Source: Verrucomicrobiota bacterium
GTDB lineage: Bacteria > Verrucomicrobiota > Verrucomicrobiia > Limisphaerales > JADLHS01
Length of the DNA: 64,000 nt
Assembly (NCBI GenBank): GCA_029573725.1
Contig: JAKQDQ010000090.1
Location: forward strand, 88,028-152,027
Direction: 5' to 3'
Under the pieces are notes generated by a model that was not told the DNA's origin, ran no database searches, and worked only from the letters and a program-made list of their open reading frames with translations. Position numbers and translations under genes: made by a program. Shown in pieces: positions 2,493 through 7,723 of the stretch (its first letter is position 1; the number at the start of each line of letters is the position of its first letter).

Positions 2493-2699
2493 CGTAGCTT
2501 CGGCTACGGGCTGCCTCGAAAACCGCTAATTTTCCAAGCCCGTCACAAGAACCGACCGAGCACGCGCCCAATCGGGCGCGGCTTGGCGCGCTTCTTGTGA
2601 CAGGCGCTTAGCGGTGCCTCGAGGCAGGGCGCGTTGAGTTCGCGCCCCTGCTGTATTCAGATTTCCCGTCGCCTTTGTTGCGCGAGCAACCACGGCGAC
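2493..2699 (+). ncRNA. Hairpin-dense region upstream of mod; candidate structured RNA or leader
   Basis: Six perfect stems lie within about 207 bases. (1) CGTAGC-TTCG-GCTACG at 2493-2508. (2) A long interrupted stem: 2511-2519 with 2619-2627 (9 bp), 2522-2529 with 2608-2615 (8 bp), 2542-2551 with 2592-2601 (10 bp). (3) CGCGCCC-AATC-GGGCGCG at 2563-2580, inside it. (4) GGGCGCG-TTGAGTT-CGCGCCC at 2627-2647. (5) GTTGC-GCGA-GCAAC at 2677-2690, capped by (6) GTCGCC/GGCGAC at 2668-2673/2694-2699. Stem 6 ends two bases before the mod ATG. There is no good ORF or ribosome-binding site. I match it to no known RNA family, so the strand and the RNA call are inferences; a small non-autonomous mobile element is an alternative. 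Confidence 0.4.
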
Positions 2700-2701
2700 C
2701 A

Positions 2702-4315
2702 ATGGCCACACTCGATTTCAAAGGGAAAGCGCTCGTCCAGAATTACCATCTCTCGGTCAAGTATCACGAACTCGTGCCGAAGAAGGACAAGAGCCTCACG
2801 GACAAGGTGCGGCTGGACGACAACCTCATCATTCACGGCGACAACTTGAAGGCGTTGAAGGCGCTGCTGCCCACCTACGCGGGCAAGGTGAAGTGCATCT
2901 ACATTGACCCACCCTACAACACCGGCAACGAAGGCTGGGCTTACAACGACAACGTCAATTCGCCGATGATGCAGGAATGGCTCGGCAAAACCGTGGATCG
3001 CGAAGACCTCACGCGCCATGACAAATGGCTGTGCATGATGATGCCGCGATTGAAGCTGCTGAAAGAACTCTTGCGGGAAGACGGGGTGATGTTCGTCTCA
3101 CTTGATGACAACGAATTGCACCGATTTCGGGCGTTGAGCGATGAGGTGTTTGGTGAAGACAATTTCGTCGAAACAATAATCTGGAAAAAGCGAAGCGGGC
3201 CACCAAACGATAAACCGCTCGGCGCTGTTCACGAATACATTGTCGCCTATGCACGTTCAATTTCTCACATGAATCTGTATTTGCGGCCACGAACGGACGA
3301 ACAACTCGCTCGGTATAAAAATCCAGACAACCATCCGAAGGGTCCGTGGACGCCTGGTGATTTGATGGCGAACGTAAAAGGCGGTCGTTACGTAGAGTCG
3401 CTCCGGTATGCGGTCACAAATCCCAAGACAGGCGAAAAACATTGGCCGGGGCAGGACGGCAACTGGAGGTTCAGCCAAGAAAAGATGCTCGCCCTCTTGG
3501 AAGCTGATGAGGTCTTCTTTGGAACGAGTGGAGACGGGCGTCCAAAACTGAAGCGATTTCTATGTGACGTGAAAGAAGGCACAGCGGTTTCAACGCTTTG
3601 GGATTCAGCCCCATTCACTAACACGGCCACCGATGAAATCGTTTCAATCCTCGGGAGCCAACAAGCGTTCGACACCCCAAAGCCGACTGAGCTAATAAAG
3701 GAGATTCTCAGATTGGGTAGTTCCAAAAATGATCTCGTTCTCGACTCCTTCGGCGGCTCAGGCACGACGGCCCACGCCGTTCTCGCGTTGAACAAAGAAG
3801 ACGGCGGCAATCGCAAGTTCATCCTCGTCGAGTGCGAAGATTACGCGGACAGCATCACGGCGGAGCGCGTGCGCCGCGTCATCAAAGGCGTGAAGGGCGC
3901 GAGTGACGAGACTTTGAAGCAGGGGCTGGGCGGCACGTTCAGTTATTTCGAGCTGGGCAAGGCGATTGAACTGGACAGCATTCTGGACGGCAAAAATCTG
4001 CCGAGTTATCTCGAACTGGCGCGCTACGTTTTCTACACCGCCACCGGCGAGGAGTTCGACGAGCGCAAGCTGAACGAGAAGCGGAGTTTCGTCGGCGAAT
4101 CCAAGTCGCACGAGGTTTATCTCCTTTACCAGCCGGATTTGGATTACCTGAAAAAGACCGCGCTCACGCTGGAGCGCGCCGAGGCGCTCGGCAAAATCAA
4201 AACCAAGCGGCGGCTCGTCTTCGCGCCGACAAAGTATCTGGATCAGGAGCAACTGGACGAACTGCGGATAGACTTCGCGCAGTTGCCGTTTGAAATCTAC
4301 AAGCTCGCGCAGTGA
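2702..4315 (+). CDS. Type III restriction-modification system DNA methyltransferase (Mod)
   Basis: A 537-residue beta-class adenine N6 methyltransferase: the catalytic DPPYNTGNE (motif IV, residues ~69-76) precedes the AdoMet-binding DSFGGSGTT (motif I, ~348), with the target-recognition region between. ORF prediction extends to a TTG at 2675, but ATG 2702 (MATLDFKGKA) is the better start because it follows the hairpin and matches the family N-terminus. It would methylate one strand of an asymmetric site and form the Mod2Res(1-2) complex with the Res encoded from 5210. The middle (roughly 3140-3760) is clearly poorer in GC than both flanks. The cognate res gene is separated from it by a RAYT/REP insertion. 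Confidence 0.93.
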   Translation: MATLDFKGKALVQNYHLSVKYHELVPKKDKSLTDKVRLDDNLIIHGDNLKALKALLPTYAGKVKCIYIDPPYNTGNEGWAYNDNVNSPMMQEWLGKTVDREDLTRHDKWLCMMMPRLKLLKELLREDGVMFVSLDDNELHRFRALSDEVFGEDNFVETIIWKKRSGPPNDKPLGAVHEYIVAYARSISHMNLYLRPRTDEQLARYKNPDNHPKGPWTPGDLMANVKGGRYVESLRYAVTNPKTGEKHWPGQDGNWRFSQEKMLALLEADEVFFGTSGDGRPKLKRFLCDVKEGTAVSTLWDSAPFTNTATDEIVSILGSQQAFDTPKPTELIKEILRLGSSKNDLVLDSFGGSGTTAHAVLALNKEDGGNRKFILVECEDYADSITAERVRRVIKGVKGASDETLKQGLGGTFSYFELGKAIELDSILDGKNLPSYLELARYVFYTATGEEFDERKLNEKRSFVGESKSHEVYLLYQPDLDYLKKTALTLERAEALGKIKTKRRLVFAPTKYLDQEQLDELRIDFAQLPFEIYKLAQ

Positions 4316-4329
4316 ATACCACAATCATT

Positions 4330-4460
4330 GGTAGGGACGGCGCGCTGCGCCGTCAGCGCCGCGTCCAGCGGCGCAACGATTCGCACGGGACGCGGGGGAT
4401 GACGGATGTGTTCCGCCCGCTGCTGCGCGGGCGGGGACAGCGCAGCGCGCTGTCCCTACC
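4330..4460. repeat. REP/BIME-like palindromic unit, left of RAYT
   Basis: The unit begins GGTAGGGAC (4330-4338) and ends with its inverse GTCCCTACC (4452-4460). It contains four perfect hairpins: GACGGCGC-gct-GCGCCGTC, GCGCCGC-gtcca-GCGGCGC, CCGCCCGC-tgctgc-GCGGGCGG and GGGACAGCGC-agc-GCGCTGTCCC. Two more copies of the same end sequence occur at 4842-4893 and 5055-5169. This is the architecture of REP sequences paired head-to-head (BIME) that RAYT proteins recognise. Its right end overlaps the 3' end of the RAYT gene. Confidence 0.85.
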
Positions 4461-5001
4461 ACGAAAATTGCGACCGCTCGCCATCCGCGAAATAAACGAA
4501 CGGCCACTCTTCGGGGCGAGCGACAAATTGTTTCCGAACCGGATTTTCCAAAATGTAATCGGCCTTTTGCCGCCGGCTCTCGTCGTGCCGCAAGCGATGT
4601 TCAAAAAAATCGCGTTGCCAGCCGATGCCGATTTCTTTTGCCGTCCATTCCTTCCATTTGCTGATGACGCCTTGGATGGTTTTGTTGGAAGGCGGAAAGG
4701 AAATCAGCGCGTGCAAATGATCCGGCATCAGCAGAAACAGATGCGGCCACCACAAGAATCTTTCCTGCCGATGGCGGACAGTCTCGAACAAACGAACGGA
4801 AATTTCCGGCGCGGCGAGTTGATTGCCATTTCCCAGTTCCGGGTAGGGACGCTGCGCTGCGGCGTCCGGACAGCGCAGCGCGCTGTCCCTACCATAGTCA
4901 AATCGTTCCCGGCAGTTGATGGTGATGAAATAGATTTCGCGCTGCGGGTCAACCCACAATGGAACGTCGTGTGGCAATGTCTTTCTTTCGGGAACGTCCA
5001 T
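4456..5001 (-). CDS. REP-associated tyrosine transposase (RAYT, IS200/Y1-type)
   Basis: A 181-residue HUH single-strand transposase. Visible are YFITINC near the N-terminus, LMPDHLHALI carrying the HxH metal-binding pair, WQRDFFEHRLR, and KADYILENPVR with the likely catalytic tyrosine. RAYTs bind and cut REP hairpins, and here REP-like units lie on both sides and one is inside the gene. Residues ~36-52 (YGRDSALRCPDAAAQRPY) are encoded by a 52-bp REP palindrome yet the frame stays open. The stop codon TAG is supplied by the GGTAGGGAC end of the left REP. It lies antisense between mod and res. Whether the copy with the internal REP is active is unknown. Confidence 0.88.
   Translation of the reverse strand: MDVPERKTLPHDVPLWVDPQREIYFITINCRERFDYGRDSALRCPDAAAQRPYPELGNGNQLAAPEISVRLFETVRHRQERFLWWPHLFLLMPDHLHALISFPPSNKTIQGVISKWKEWTAKEIGIGWQRDFFEHRLRHDESRRQKADYILENPVRKQFVARPEEWPFVYFADGERSQFSW
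4842..4893. repeat. REP palindrome inside the RAYT coding sequence
   Basis: A compact 52-bp unit with the same ends as the flanking REPs (GGTAGGGAC and GTCCCTACC) and an internal perfect hairpin GGACAGCGC-agc-GCGCTGTCC. It sits in the RAYT gene, where it is translated in frame. Confidence 0.85.
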
Positions 5002-5054
5002 GACGGGAAGCTATGCGATGCGTCACATGACGACAAAGCAAATTGGGCGAATTG

Positions 5055-5169
5055 GGTAGGGACGCCGCGCGGCGCTGTCCGCGCCCGTAAAGCGGGCGCT
5101 AGATTCATCCTTCGACACAAAATTCCGGCGGCTTTACCGCCGGGGACATCGCAGCGCGATGTCCCTACC
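5055..5169. repeat. REP/BIME-like palindromic unit, right of RAYT
   Basis: Begins GGTAGGGAC (5055-5063) and ends GTCCCTACC (5161-5169). Inner hairpins are GCGCCCG-taaag-CGGGCGC, CCGGCGG-cttta-CCGCCGG and GGACATCGC-agc-GCGATGTCC. It begins 53 bases 5' of the RAYT start and ends 40 bases before the res ATG, so transcription into res must pass through or start after it. Confidence 0.85.
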
Positions 5170-5209
5170 AAAGAAAATGCGAAGCTAATTTGGTAATGGA
5201 TCACACGTC

Positions 5210-7723
5210 ATGGAACTGAAAGAATACCAGCAGAACACGCTCAAGCGGGTGAAGGCGTATCTCGAAGCGTTAAATTCGTGGCGCGACAAAAACGAAAAGG
5301 TCGTGGCGGCGGCAGGCAGGGAGGCGGCGCTGGACGTGCCGCTGAAAGCATGGGAGGAAATCGGCGGCACACATTATCGCTCGCGCAAGAACGGTCTCGG
5401 TGAATCGCTGCCGAATTTCTGCCTGAAAATCCCGACGGGCGGCGGCAAGACGCTGCTGGCGGCGCACACGGTTGATCTCGTGAACCGGATTTACCGGAAG
5501 AAGCAGACCGGGCTGATTCTCTGGGTCGTGCCGACCACGCAGATTTACCGCCAGACCATCGAGCATTTGCGCAACCGCGATCATTCGTATCGGCAGGTGC
5601 TGGACATTGCCAGCGGCGGGCGCACGATGATTTGCGAAAAGACCGACCGCTTCACGCCGGGCGACGCGGCGGAAAATCTCGTGGTGCTGATGCTGATGCT
5701 GCCGTCGGCCTCGCGGCAGAACAAGGAGACGTTGAAAGTGTTCAAGGACAGCGGCGGTTTCGGGGCGTTCTTTCCGAAGGATGACGACGCGCGCGGTCAC
5801 GCGAAGTTGCTGGAACGATTTCCGAACCTCGACGCGTTTGGCGATGGCAAGGGATTGTTCCAACGGCAGGTAAAAACTTCGCTTGGCAATACGCTGCGGA
5901 TTTTGTCGCCGATCATCATTCTGGATGAAGGGCACAAGGCTTACAGCGAGACGGCGCAGGACACGTTGCGCGGATTGAATCCCTCCGTAATCGTGGAACT
6001 TTCCGCCACGCCCACGGAAGCGAGCAACGTGCTGGTGGAGATCAAGGGGCTGGACTTGAAGCGCGAGGACATGATCAAGCTGGATTTGCACATCAACAAC
6101 AAGGAGAGCACGCGCTGGAAAGACACGATGCTGGCGAGCATCAAGAAACGCGAGGCGTTGGAAGCGGCGGCGCGCAAATACGAGGCGAACAGCGGGAATC
6201 ACATCCGCCCGATTTGTCTGGTGCAGGTGGAGCGCACGGGCAAAGACCAGCGCGGCGGGAACTTCATTCACGCCGAGGACGTGCGGGAATTTCTCGTGAA
6301 GGAATACGGCGTGCCAGCGGATGAAGTCGCGGTGAAGTCGAGCGAGAAGGACGACATCGAGGGCATCAATCTGTTCGCGCGGAACTGTCCGATCCGTTAC
6401 ATCATCACGAAACAGGCGTTGCAGGAGGGCTGGGATTGCGCGTTTGCCTATGTGCTGACGATCCTCACCAATCCGTCGTCGAAGAACAATCTCACGCAAC
6501 TGGTCGGGCGGATTCTGCGCCAGCCGTTTGCGCGGAAAACGAAAATCCGAGTACTGGATGAGAGTTATGTCTTCTGCTTCCGACAAAAGGCCAAGCTGCT
6601 GGTGGATGCGGTGCGCGAAGGTTTCGGTCGCGAGGGTCTGGGCGATCTGGCCGGTCAGGTCGTGATGGATTCGCCGGATGACGATGACCAAGGCGAGGAA
6701 TTGATTGAGTTGCGCGACAAATTCAAGAAGTTCGCCGGGAAGATTTATCTGCCCAAGTTTGTGATTCAGCAGGGTGCGCAATGGCGCGAGGTGAGTTACG
6801 AGACGGACATCGTGAGCCGGATAGATTGGTCGCAGGCGGATTTTTCGGCGGAGAAGAACTTGCAACTGGCGGACGCGCCGTCGCAGGACGCGGAAATCAT
6901 CGTGACGTTGAGCGGCGACACCAAATCCGGGCTGATCAAGGAAAGCGGGCGGCAGTATCTCACGGCCAAAGACTCTGGTGTTGACCCGGTGTTTGCCACG
7001 CGGCAATTGCTGGAAATTATCCCGAACCCGTGGATCGCGCACGACGTTGTGAAAGAAGTCATCGGCACATTGACGCGGAAGAACGGATTGGATTTGGTGG
7101 CGAAGAATTTTGTGTTCATCGTTCAAGAGCTGGTGAAGCGCGCCGATGCGGAGCGCAACCGGCTCGCGGAGGAGGTTTTCAGTGAATTGGTGGGCACGAA
7201 GAAACTTCGCTTCCTGCTCTTGAAAGACGACGCGGGCTATCGCCTGCCCAGCAAGATTTCCATGCGCAAAGGCACGCGCAAACTCGTGCGGGAGGACAAC
7301 TCGCCTTTGCAGTTGAGTTTGTTCGAGCAAGTGCCCGAAGACGGGCTGAACAGCGAAGAGCGCAGCGTGGCGTGGTATTTTGAGAAGCAGGCGCAGTTGC
7401 TTTGGTGGTATCGGAATCTGTCGCGGCAGGACTATCGCCTGCAAGGCTGGCGCAAGCACGGGATTTATCCCGACTTCATTGTCTCCCGCATCAGCACCGA
7501 CGACAAAACGGACTTTGACAAGGTTTTCGTCGTTGAATCCAAGGGCATCCATCTGAAAAACGACGATACAGATTACAAAAAGCAGTTCTTCAAAGTTTGC
7601 AACAAACTTGCCGAGGAAAAGAGCTGGACGGAGTTGGGTTTGGAATTCCCAGAACGGAAAATTGTTTTCGAGTTAGTCCATGGCGACGAGTGGCAAAAGG
7701 TGATGAACGCCCTGTTAAAGTGA
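5210..7723 (+). CDS. Type III restriction enzyme Res subunit (SF2 helicase + endonuclease)
   Basis: An 837-residue protein. Superfamily 2 helicase motifs are in order: PTGGGKT (Walker A, residues 75-81), ILDEGHKAY (DExH box, ~239-242), VELSATPTE (motif III), ALQEGWD and LVGRILRQP (motif VI). Near the C-terminus, YPDFIV and, about 23 residues later, VVESKG form a PD-(D/E)xK nuclease core (~residues 753-777). It uses ATP to move or switch along DNA and cuts when two unmethylated sites interact, in complex with Mod. The ATG at 5210 gives the usual N-terminus MELKEYQQ. Mod and res are normally adjacent; here 894 bases of RAYT/REP DNA lie between. Confidence 0.93.
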   Translation: MELKEYQQNTLKRVKAYLEALNSWRDKNEKVVAAAGREAALDVPLKAWEEIGGTHYRSRKNGLGESLPNFCLKIPTGGGKTLLAAHTVDLVNRIYRKKQTGLILWVVPTTQIYRQTIEHLRNRDHSYRQVLDIASGGRTMICEKTDRFTPGDAAENLVVLMLMLPSASRQNKETLKVFKDSGGFGAFFPKDDDARGHAKLLERFPNLDAFGDGKGLFQRQVKTSLGNTLRILSPIIILDEGHKAYSETAQDTLRGLNPSVIVELSATPTEASNVLVEIKGLDLKREDMIKLDLHINNKESTRWKDTMLASIKKREALEAAARKYEANSGNHIRPICLVQVERTGKDQRGGNFIHAEDVREFLVKEYGVPADEVAVKSSEKDDIEGINLFARNCPIRYIITKQALQEGWDCAFAYVLTILTNPSSKNNLTQLVGRILRQPFARKTKIRVLDESYVFCFRQKAKLLVDAVREGFGREGLGDLAGQVVMDSPDDDDQGEELIELRDKFKKFAGKIYLPKFVIQQGAQWREVSYETDIVSRIDWSQADFSAEKNLQLADAPSQDAEIIVTLSGDTKSGLIKESGRQYLTAKDSGVDPVFATRQLLEIIPNPWIAHDVVKEVIGTLTRKNGLDLVAKNFVFIVQELVKRADAERNRLAEEVFSELVGTKKLRFLLLKDDAGYRLPSKISMRKGTRKLVREDNSPLQLSLFEQVPEDGLNSEERSVAWYFEKQAQLLWWYRNLSRQDYRLQGWRKHGIYPDFIVSRISTDDKTDFDKVFVVESKGIHLKNDDTDYKKQFFKVCNKLAEEKSWTELGLEFPERKIVFELVHGDEWQKVMNALLK

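Follow-up and report, generated by a model that had tools for sequence, protein, structure and literature searches.

A conserved structured RNA family of Verrucomicrobiota upstream of DNA methyltransferase and other accessory genes, a candidate for control of transcriptional readthrough

The region directly in front of a type III mod-like methyltransferase gene in a Verrucomicrobiota bacterium carries one copy of a structured RNA that recurs throughout this phylum. As far as comparison can show, it is certain that this is a conserved, selected RNA; its placement makes a role as cis-acting leader well supported, and it probably controls whether the downstream gene is transcribed. We hold with moderate confidence that it is an orphan cis-acting leader of the mod transcript, one of a phylum-wide family, that sets or switches readthrough by attenuation or antitermination. 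The window (i.e. the whole 64,000-nt stretch that was analysed) contains this copy at 2489–2656 on the plus strand, followed on the same strand by the N6/N4 DNA methyltransferase gene (2702–4315; Pfam N6_N4_Mtase, E 2e-35; PADLOC MTase_III, E 3e-171) and the type III res subunit (5210–7723; Pfam ResIII, E 5e-15). Between mod and res, a REP-associated tyrosine transposase is encoded on the minus strand (4456–5001, with flanks 4320–5200; NCBIfam NF047646), accompanied by GGTAGGGAC...GTCCCTACC repeats, one of which seems to lie inside its reading frame.

Fold and covariation of the RNA

Folded as RNA, the 207-nt stretch upstream of mod (2493–2699) has a minimum free energy of -117.9 kcal/mol (z -8.24), and none of 200 dinucleotide shuffles was equally stable. 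The preliminary description, which had been made from the letters of this DNA, had remarked on the dense folding and named a series of hairpins, all of which were found in the sequence. The window copy belongs to subtype A, and its conserved unit is best placed at ~2489–2656, together with a conserved candidate promoter and leader on its 5′ side (~2412–2488). The fold starts with P1, a 6-bp hairpin with the UUCG loop noted earlier (2493–2508; fold and covariation), followed by the outer stem P2 (2511–2518 with 2620–2627; covariation in 91 copies). P2 encloses, in this order, the hairpin HP1 (GAAAA/UUUUC, loop CCGCUAA, 2518–2534; covariation), the long arm P3 and the hairpin HP2 (GGCGC/GUGCC, loop UUAGCGG, 2603–2618; covariation in 23 sequences). 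The arm has a base, P3a (2542–2551 with 2592–2601), a middle part, P3b (2556–2561 with 2581–2586), both placed by covariation, and a 7-bp tip hairpin, P3c (2563–2580; fold and covariation), in which CGCGCCC and GGGCGCG close an AAUC loop. Directly after P2 comes P4, a terminator-like 7-bp hairpin (GGGCGCG/CGCGCCC, 2627–2647; covariation); it and the arm tip are the two 7-bp hairpins listed before.

A three-part long-range stem had also been proposed, and its outer and inner parts correspond to P2 and P3a. Its 8-bp middle part, ACCGCUAA/UUAGCGGU (~2522–2529 with 2608–2615), does pair, but more probably as a kissing interaction of the HP1 loop with the HP2 loop; each of the two hairpins shows conservation and co-variation of its own, which favours this reading. 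The two loops are complementary over 6–7 nt and change together between copies (CCGCGAA with UUCGCGG, CCGAGAA with UUCUCGG, CGCCAG with CUGGCG); the pairs of the kissing helix are formed in 100% of 23 sequences, and four of the six change on both sides. A further hairpin with a GCGA loop (2677–2690), part of a gene-proximal stem (2668–2699) that ends two bases before the ATG at 2702, is present as described but lies outside the family core: it occurs in some copies only, and those that share it are mostly near methyltransferases.

Support for selection on the pairing comes from two alignments. In the first, 32 copies were aligned, the 23 of the main subtype A were separated, and a consensus structure was written by hand. 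No fitting to the structure went into this 23-sequence MAFFT alignment, in which 94.1% of cells are paired and 107 are double-changed, versus 32 in shuffles; sliding the partner by 1–3 columns lowers pairing to 37–57%. In an alignment of 91 copies, 672 double-changed cells stand against ~180 in shuffles, both partners change in 42 of 54 pairs, and slid controls are 39–50% paired; since this alignment was fitted to the covariance model, the 23-sequence test is the stricter one. Over the 91 copies, P2 is paired in 99% of cells, with changes on both sides at six of seven pairs and nearly all pair types represented, while P4 is paired in 96.7%; P3a has compensatory changes at all five modelled core pairs. 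The suspicion of a selected RNA structure, for which a covariance search and compensatory changes had been named as checks, is thus clearly borne out by both. One copy (L235) has lost the consensus from its 5′ half and keeps the arm, HP2 and P4, possibly as a decaying element.

Distribution and genomic setting

Across the whole window, no Rfam 15 family reaches its gathering score, and a permissive threshold gave only weak, spurious miRNA and snoRNA matches. Our literature search found no paper describing the family, and the motifs of the 2017 '224 candidate RNAs' paper are expected to be in Rfam. With neither a match in Rfam 15 nor a mention in the literature searched, the family appears to be previously undescribed.

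At the DNA level, the RNA is a single copy in its own genome, and of 57 related genomes about one in three contains homologs of 72–92% identity, with no more than six in any of them. Covariance models reach further and find up to 16 copies per genome; a first model with mixed subtypes (R1) gave a poor consensus, and R2 and R3 were used in its place. In a sample of 293 genomes from the same order, model R2 detects the family in 102, and covariance searches detect it in 49 of 335 genomes of a class sample and 84 of 338 of a phylum sample (Verrucomicrobiota in the broad sense), the weakest of these class and phylum matches (E near 1e-4 to 1e-6) being less certain. Ten of 24 named genomes also match; these are Verrucomicrobia, Opitutia, Opitutaceae, Luteolibacter and Lentisphaerae bins and one bin labelled Planctomycetota. 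The latter is the one match among 14 non-Verrucomicrobiota genomes searched; the named genomes of Bacteroidota, Gammaproteobacteria, Chloroflexota, Nitrospira and other Planctomycetes gave none. This single copy outside the phylum (L300, in G803) may reflect misbinning, contamination or transfer. Contig ends are near to four of the copies (L185, L187, L284 and L322), a hint of assembly breaks caused by repeats and of undercounting. Plasmids and cultured phages gave no match, and viral contigs contributed six members; another viral contig (L328) shares an exact 18-mer yet is not a member of the family.

The RNA does not travel with mod as such, since among 80 mod loci from many phyla it was found at only two, both in Verrucomicrobiota (L063 and L138). 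The genes that it precedes are diverse and include DNA methyltransferases, secreted proteins and a Mu-like phage transposition operon. For the 77 copies that were recruited through nothing but the RNA model, the gene downstream has a methylase-type PP(Y/F/W) motif in ~16 cases and a signal-peptide-like start in ~27; these are counts by crude regular expressions, and at least two of the motif matches are probably false. A set of 86 downstream proteins, some of them from copies recruited through mod, has N6_N4_Mtase as its most frequent Pfam domain (22), ahead of ResIII, laminin-G, Ig and MORN, and PADLOC agrees with Pfam. The earlier suggestion of a methyltransferase leader therefore holds for the leader placement, as detailed below, but not for specificity to methyltransferases. 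No pathway or metabolic theme common to the downstream genes was found, such as would mark a coherent riboswitch regulon. In two distinct Mu-like phages (L324 and L327, the latter with an element sequence identical to that of L325), the RNA heads the strand with the Mu-type transposase, MuB-like and Gam genes; other phage copies differ from this placement or show it less clearly.

Promoter-like sites, terminator-like hairpin and proposed control of readthrough

Most copies share one layout: a sigma70-like promoter, an A-rich leader of ~45 nt, the RNA, the terminator-like hairpin with its U-tract, and a start codon. In 91 copies, the best sigma70-like site mostly ends 45–60 nt before the start of the RNA model and scores 11.2, versus 9.6 ± 1.2 in shuffles, as a consensus match only. 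In the window, the candidate elements, likewise matched to the consensus only, are a -35-like TTGACG (2412–2417) and, after a 17-nt spacer, a -10-like CACACT (2435–2440), with a predicted transcript start at ~2447 and an unstructured A-rich 5′ leader (2447–2488) that is kept in close copies. A recurrent CGCGTTAG-like sequence upstream had resembled the end of an integron attC site, and is better explained by the 17-nt spacing between -35 and -10. On the 3′ side, a start codon on the same strand follows within 15–85 nt in 102 of 125 copies (median 43 nt), and it is because of this short distance in most copies that a cis-acting leader is well supported.

P4 resembles an intrinsic terminator, in that a G+C-rich hairpin and a U-tract stand before the gene. 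Over nine positions 3′ of P4, the T fraction in ~130 copies is 0.45–0.85, falling to 0.15–0.25 further downstream; the tract lies at 2648–2656 in the window copy, where, as in some others, it is interrupted (CUGCUGUAUU). A second pairing, P5, involves the same hairpin: the 3′ strand of P4 (CGCGCCC, 2641–2647) complements that of the arm tip P3c (GGGCGCG, 2574–2580), and the two co-vary (GGGTGCG with CGCACCC; GGGCGCA with TGCGTCC; in subtype B, GGGCGTG with CACGCCC throughout). In 130 copies, the duplex comes to -12.9 kcal/mol for a copy's own pair of strands versus -11.8 kcal/mol for mismatched pairs, with none of 1000 permutations as good, a statistic that related sequences inflate. P5 is at least as stable as the pairing of P4's own strands in 117 of the 130, and three divergent copies (L311, L312 and L315) combine weak pairing within P4 with a strong cross pairing. 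P5 would be exclusive with P4. Forcing it in a nested fold of the window copy costs ~27 kcal/mol, so it would not form unaided and would need something else in its favour. The co-variation of P3c and P4 could instead reflect one protein that binds both hairpins.

Two related observations concern other copies. In part of subtype B, the terminator is followed by a complement of the HP2 3′ strand (14 of 43 copies, p ≤ 0.05), which subtype A, including the window copy, does not have. Four phage copies (L324, L325, L327 and L329) are without the usual P1; GACTTGG, GGATTTGG and GCATGATG stand in its place, complementary to part of the arm and co-varying between phages, which suggests one more helix with the arm.

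Taken together, comparison supports the fold, the kissing loops, the second pairing, the U-tract and the constant placement, and we propose the following for the readthrough control that we favour. Transcription would start ~45 nt upstream of the first hairpin, and the nascent RNA would fold into P1, P2 around the two kissing hairpins and the long arm P3, and then P4 with its U-rich tract. The gene would be reached only by polymerases that read through P4, because the 25–45 nt before it leave no room for another promoter. Pairing of the 3′ strand of the arm tip with that of P4 would block P4 formation, and the RNA could in this manner set or switch readthrough, in response to a protein, a ribosome, a ligand or no trigger at all; transcription, the direction of control and the existence of a trigger are what we infer here. 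Tentatively, and with more doubt than conviction, we extend this to a new RNA class that switches or licenses readthrough by strand exchange between arm tip and terminator, which Verrucomicrobiota would place before horizontally acquired genes (restriction-modification, surface proteins) and Mu-like phages at the head of their transposition operon.

Among other explanations, the one that fares best, which we still think rather unlikely, is a processive antiterminator like the put RNAs of phage HK022, which would bind RNA polymerase and, needing no ligand, carry it past terminators in operons that are long, poorly translated or foreign. It would suit the unrelated and often long downstream genes, the position at the start of the transposition operon in two Mu-like phages and the terminator-like hairpin directly after the RNA; however, this RNA is larger and more elaborate than put RNAs, Rfam gave no sequence relation to them, and the complementarity of arm tip and P4 would require a separate explanation.

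Less probable again, and in our view a poor fit, is the free-standing small RNA suggested earlier, taken here as a trans-acting gene of ~200 nt that has a promoter and a terminator to itself and lies near other genes either incidentally or through selection for transfer. The promoter-like and terminator-like ends that it calls for are present and the fold is strong and autonomous, but the constant short distance to a same-strand start codon speaks against it, as do stems and loops that vary between copies of one genome with no hint of one shared target or partner.

Translational control, by a ribosome on a start-stop mini-ORF with the compact fold governing passage or reinitiation at the gene, is very improbable, and has its basis in the A-rich leader. 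There, 32 of 91 copies have a start-stop, versus ~4% expected, and among 51 ATGs located 14–36 nt before the RNA, 44 reach an in-frame stop after 0–1 codons, while the other two frames together account for 4. The start-stop is nevertheless absent from the window copy and many lineages, and a Shine-Dalgarno sequence of their own is frequent in copies before secreted-protein genes. At the level of the order, about half of the copies have the start-stop, strongly in frame; in leaders L185–L244 it appears 21–30 nt before the RNA as ATG-TAA/TAG/TGA or as ATG, one codon and a stop. That ATGTAA might be a -10 box was excluded, because each of the three stop codons is found and one-codon insertions keep the frame. 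Between attenuation, put-type antitermination and translational control, the evidence does not separate.

A non-autonomous mobile element of MITE or REP/REPIN type, also raised in the preliminary description, we consider the least probable of all: many dispersed copies do stand before unrelated genes, and promoter and RNA were apparently copied as a unit in one genome, but the window's own genome has the one copy and no near-identical ones, copies diverge compensatorily while keeping their base pairs, orientation and gene spacing are fixed, no shared ends or target duplications were noticed, and plasmids and cultured phages gave no match. The genome in question, G795, has paralogs (L284, L288, L290, L291 and L298) that are also alike over 50–90 nt upstream of the RNA, as if promoter, leader and RNA had been duplicated together.

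Relation to known systems

The family is large and strongly supported, recurs before DNA methyltransferase and secreted-protein genes and heads the transposition operon in Mu-like phages. Should it control readthrough, accessory genes of a little-studied phylum would have a general RNA switch, and the family would offer a concrete entry to the control of restriction-modification genes in Verrucomicrobiota, and the covariation model makes every helix open to mutational testing. A close likeness in layout is to the orphan riboswitches and attenuators collected in Rfam, which share the 5′ leader position, an upstream promoter, a fold with kissing loops and a terminator-like hairpin before the gene; this RNA differs from them by having no Rfam match, no shared metabolic theme and no known ligand, and by the second co-varying pairing of arm tip and terminator strand. 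Leader-peptide attenuators likewise resemble the many copies in which a tiny ORF precedes the folded leader and terminator. Here, however, the ORF is usually a start-stop or one codon, and therefore cannot read amino-acid supply in the usual way, and the window copy does not have it. EAR and LoaP-type leader RNAs of Firmicutes are also large structured leaders ahead of long operons, but belong to another phylum and differ in fold and genes, and no Rfam match to such families was obtained. The put RNAs of HK022 act in phage early operons, where two hairpins bind RNA polymerase and cause processive antitermination with no ligand. They are alike as structured RNAs near the operon start and ahead of terminators, whereas the family described here comprises ~165 nt with an outer stem, kissing loops and a long arm, and is mostly chromosomal.
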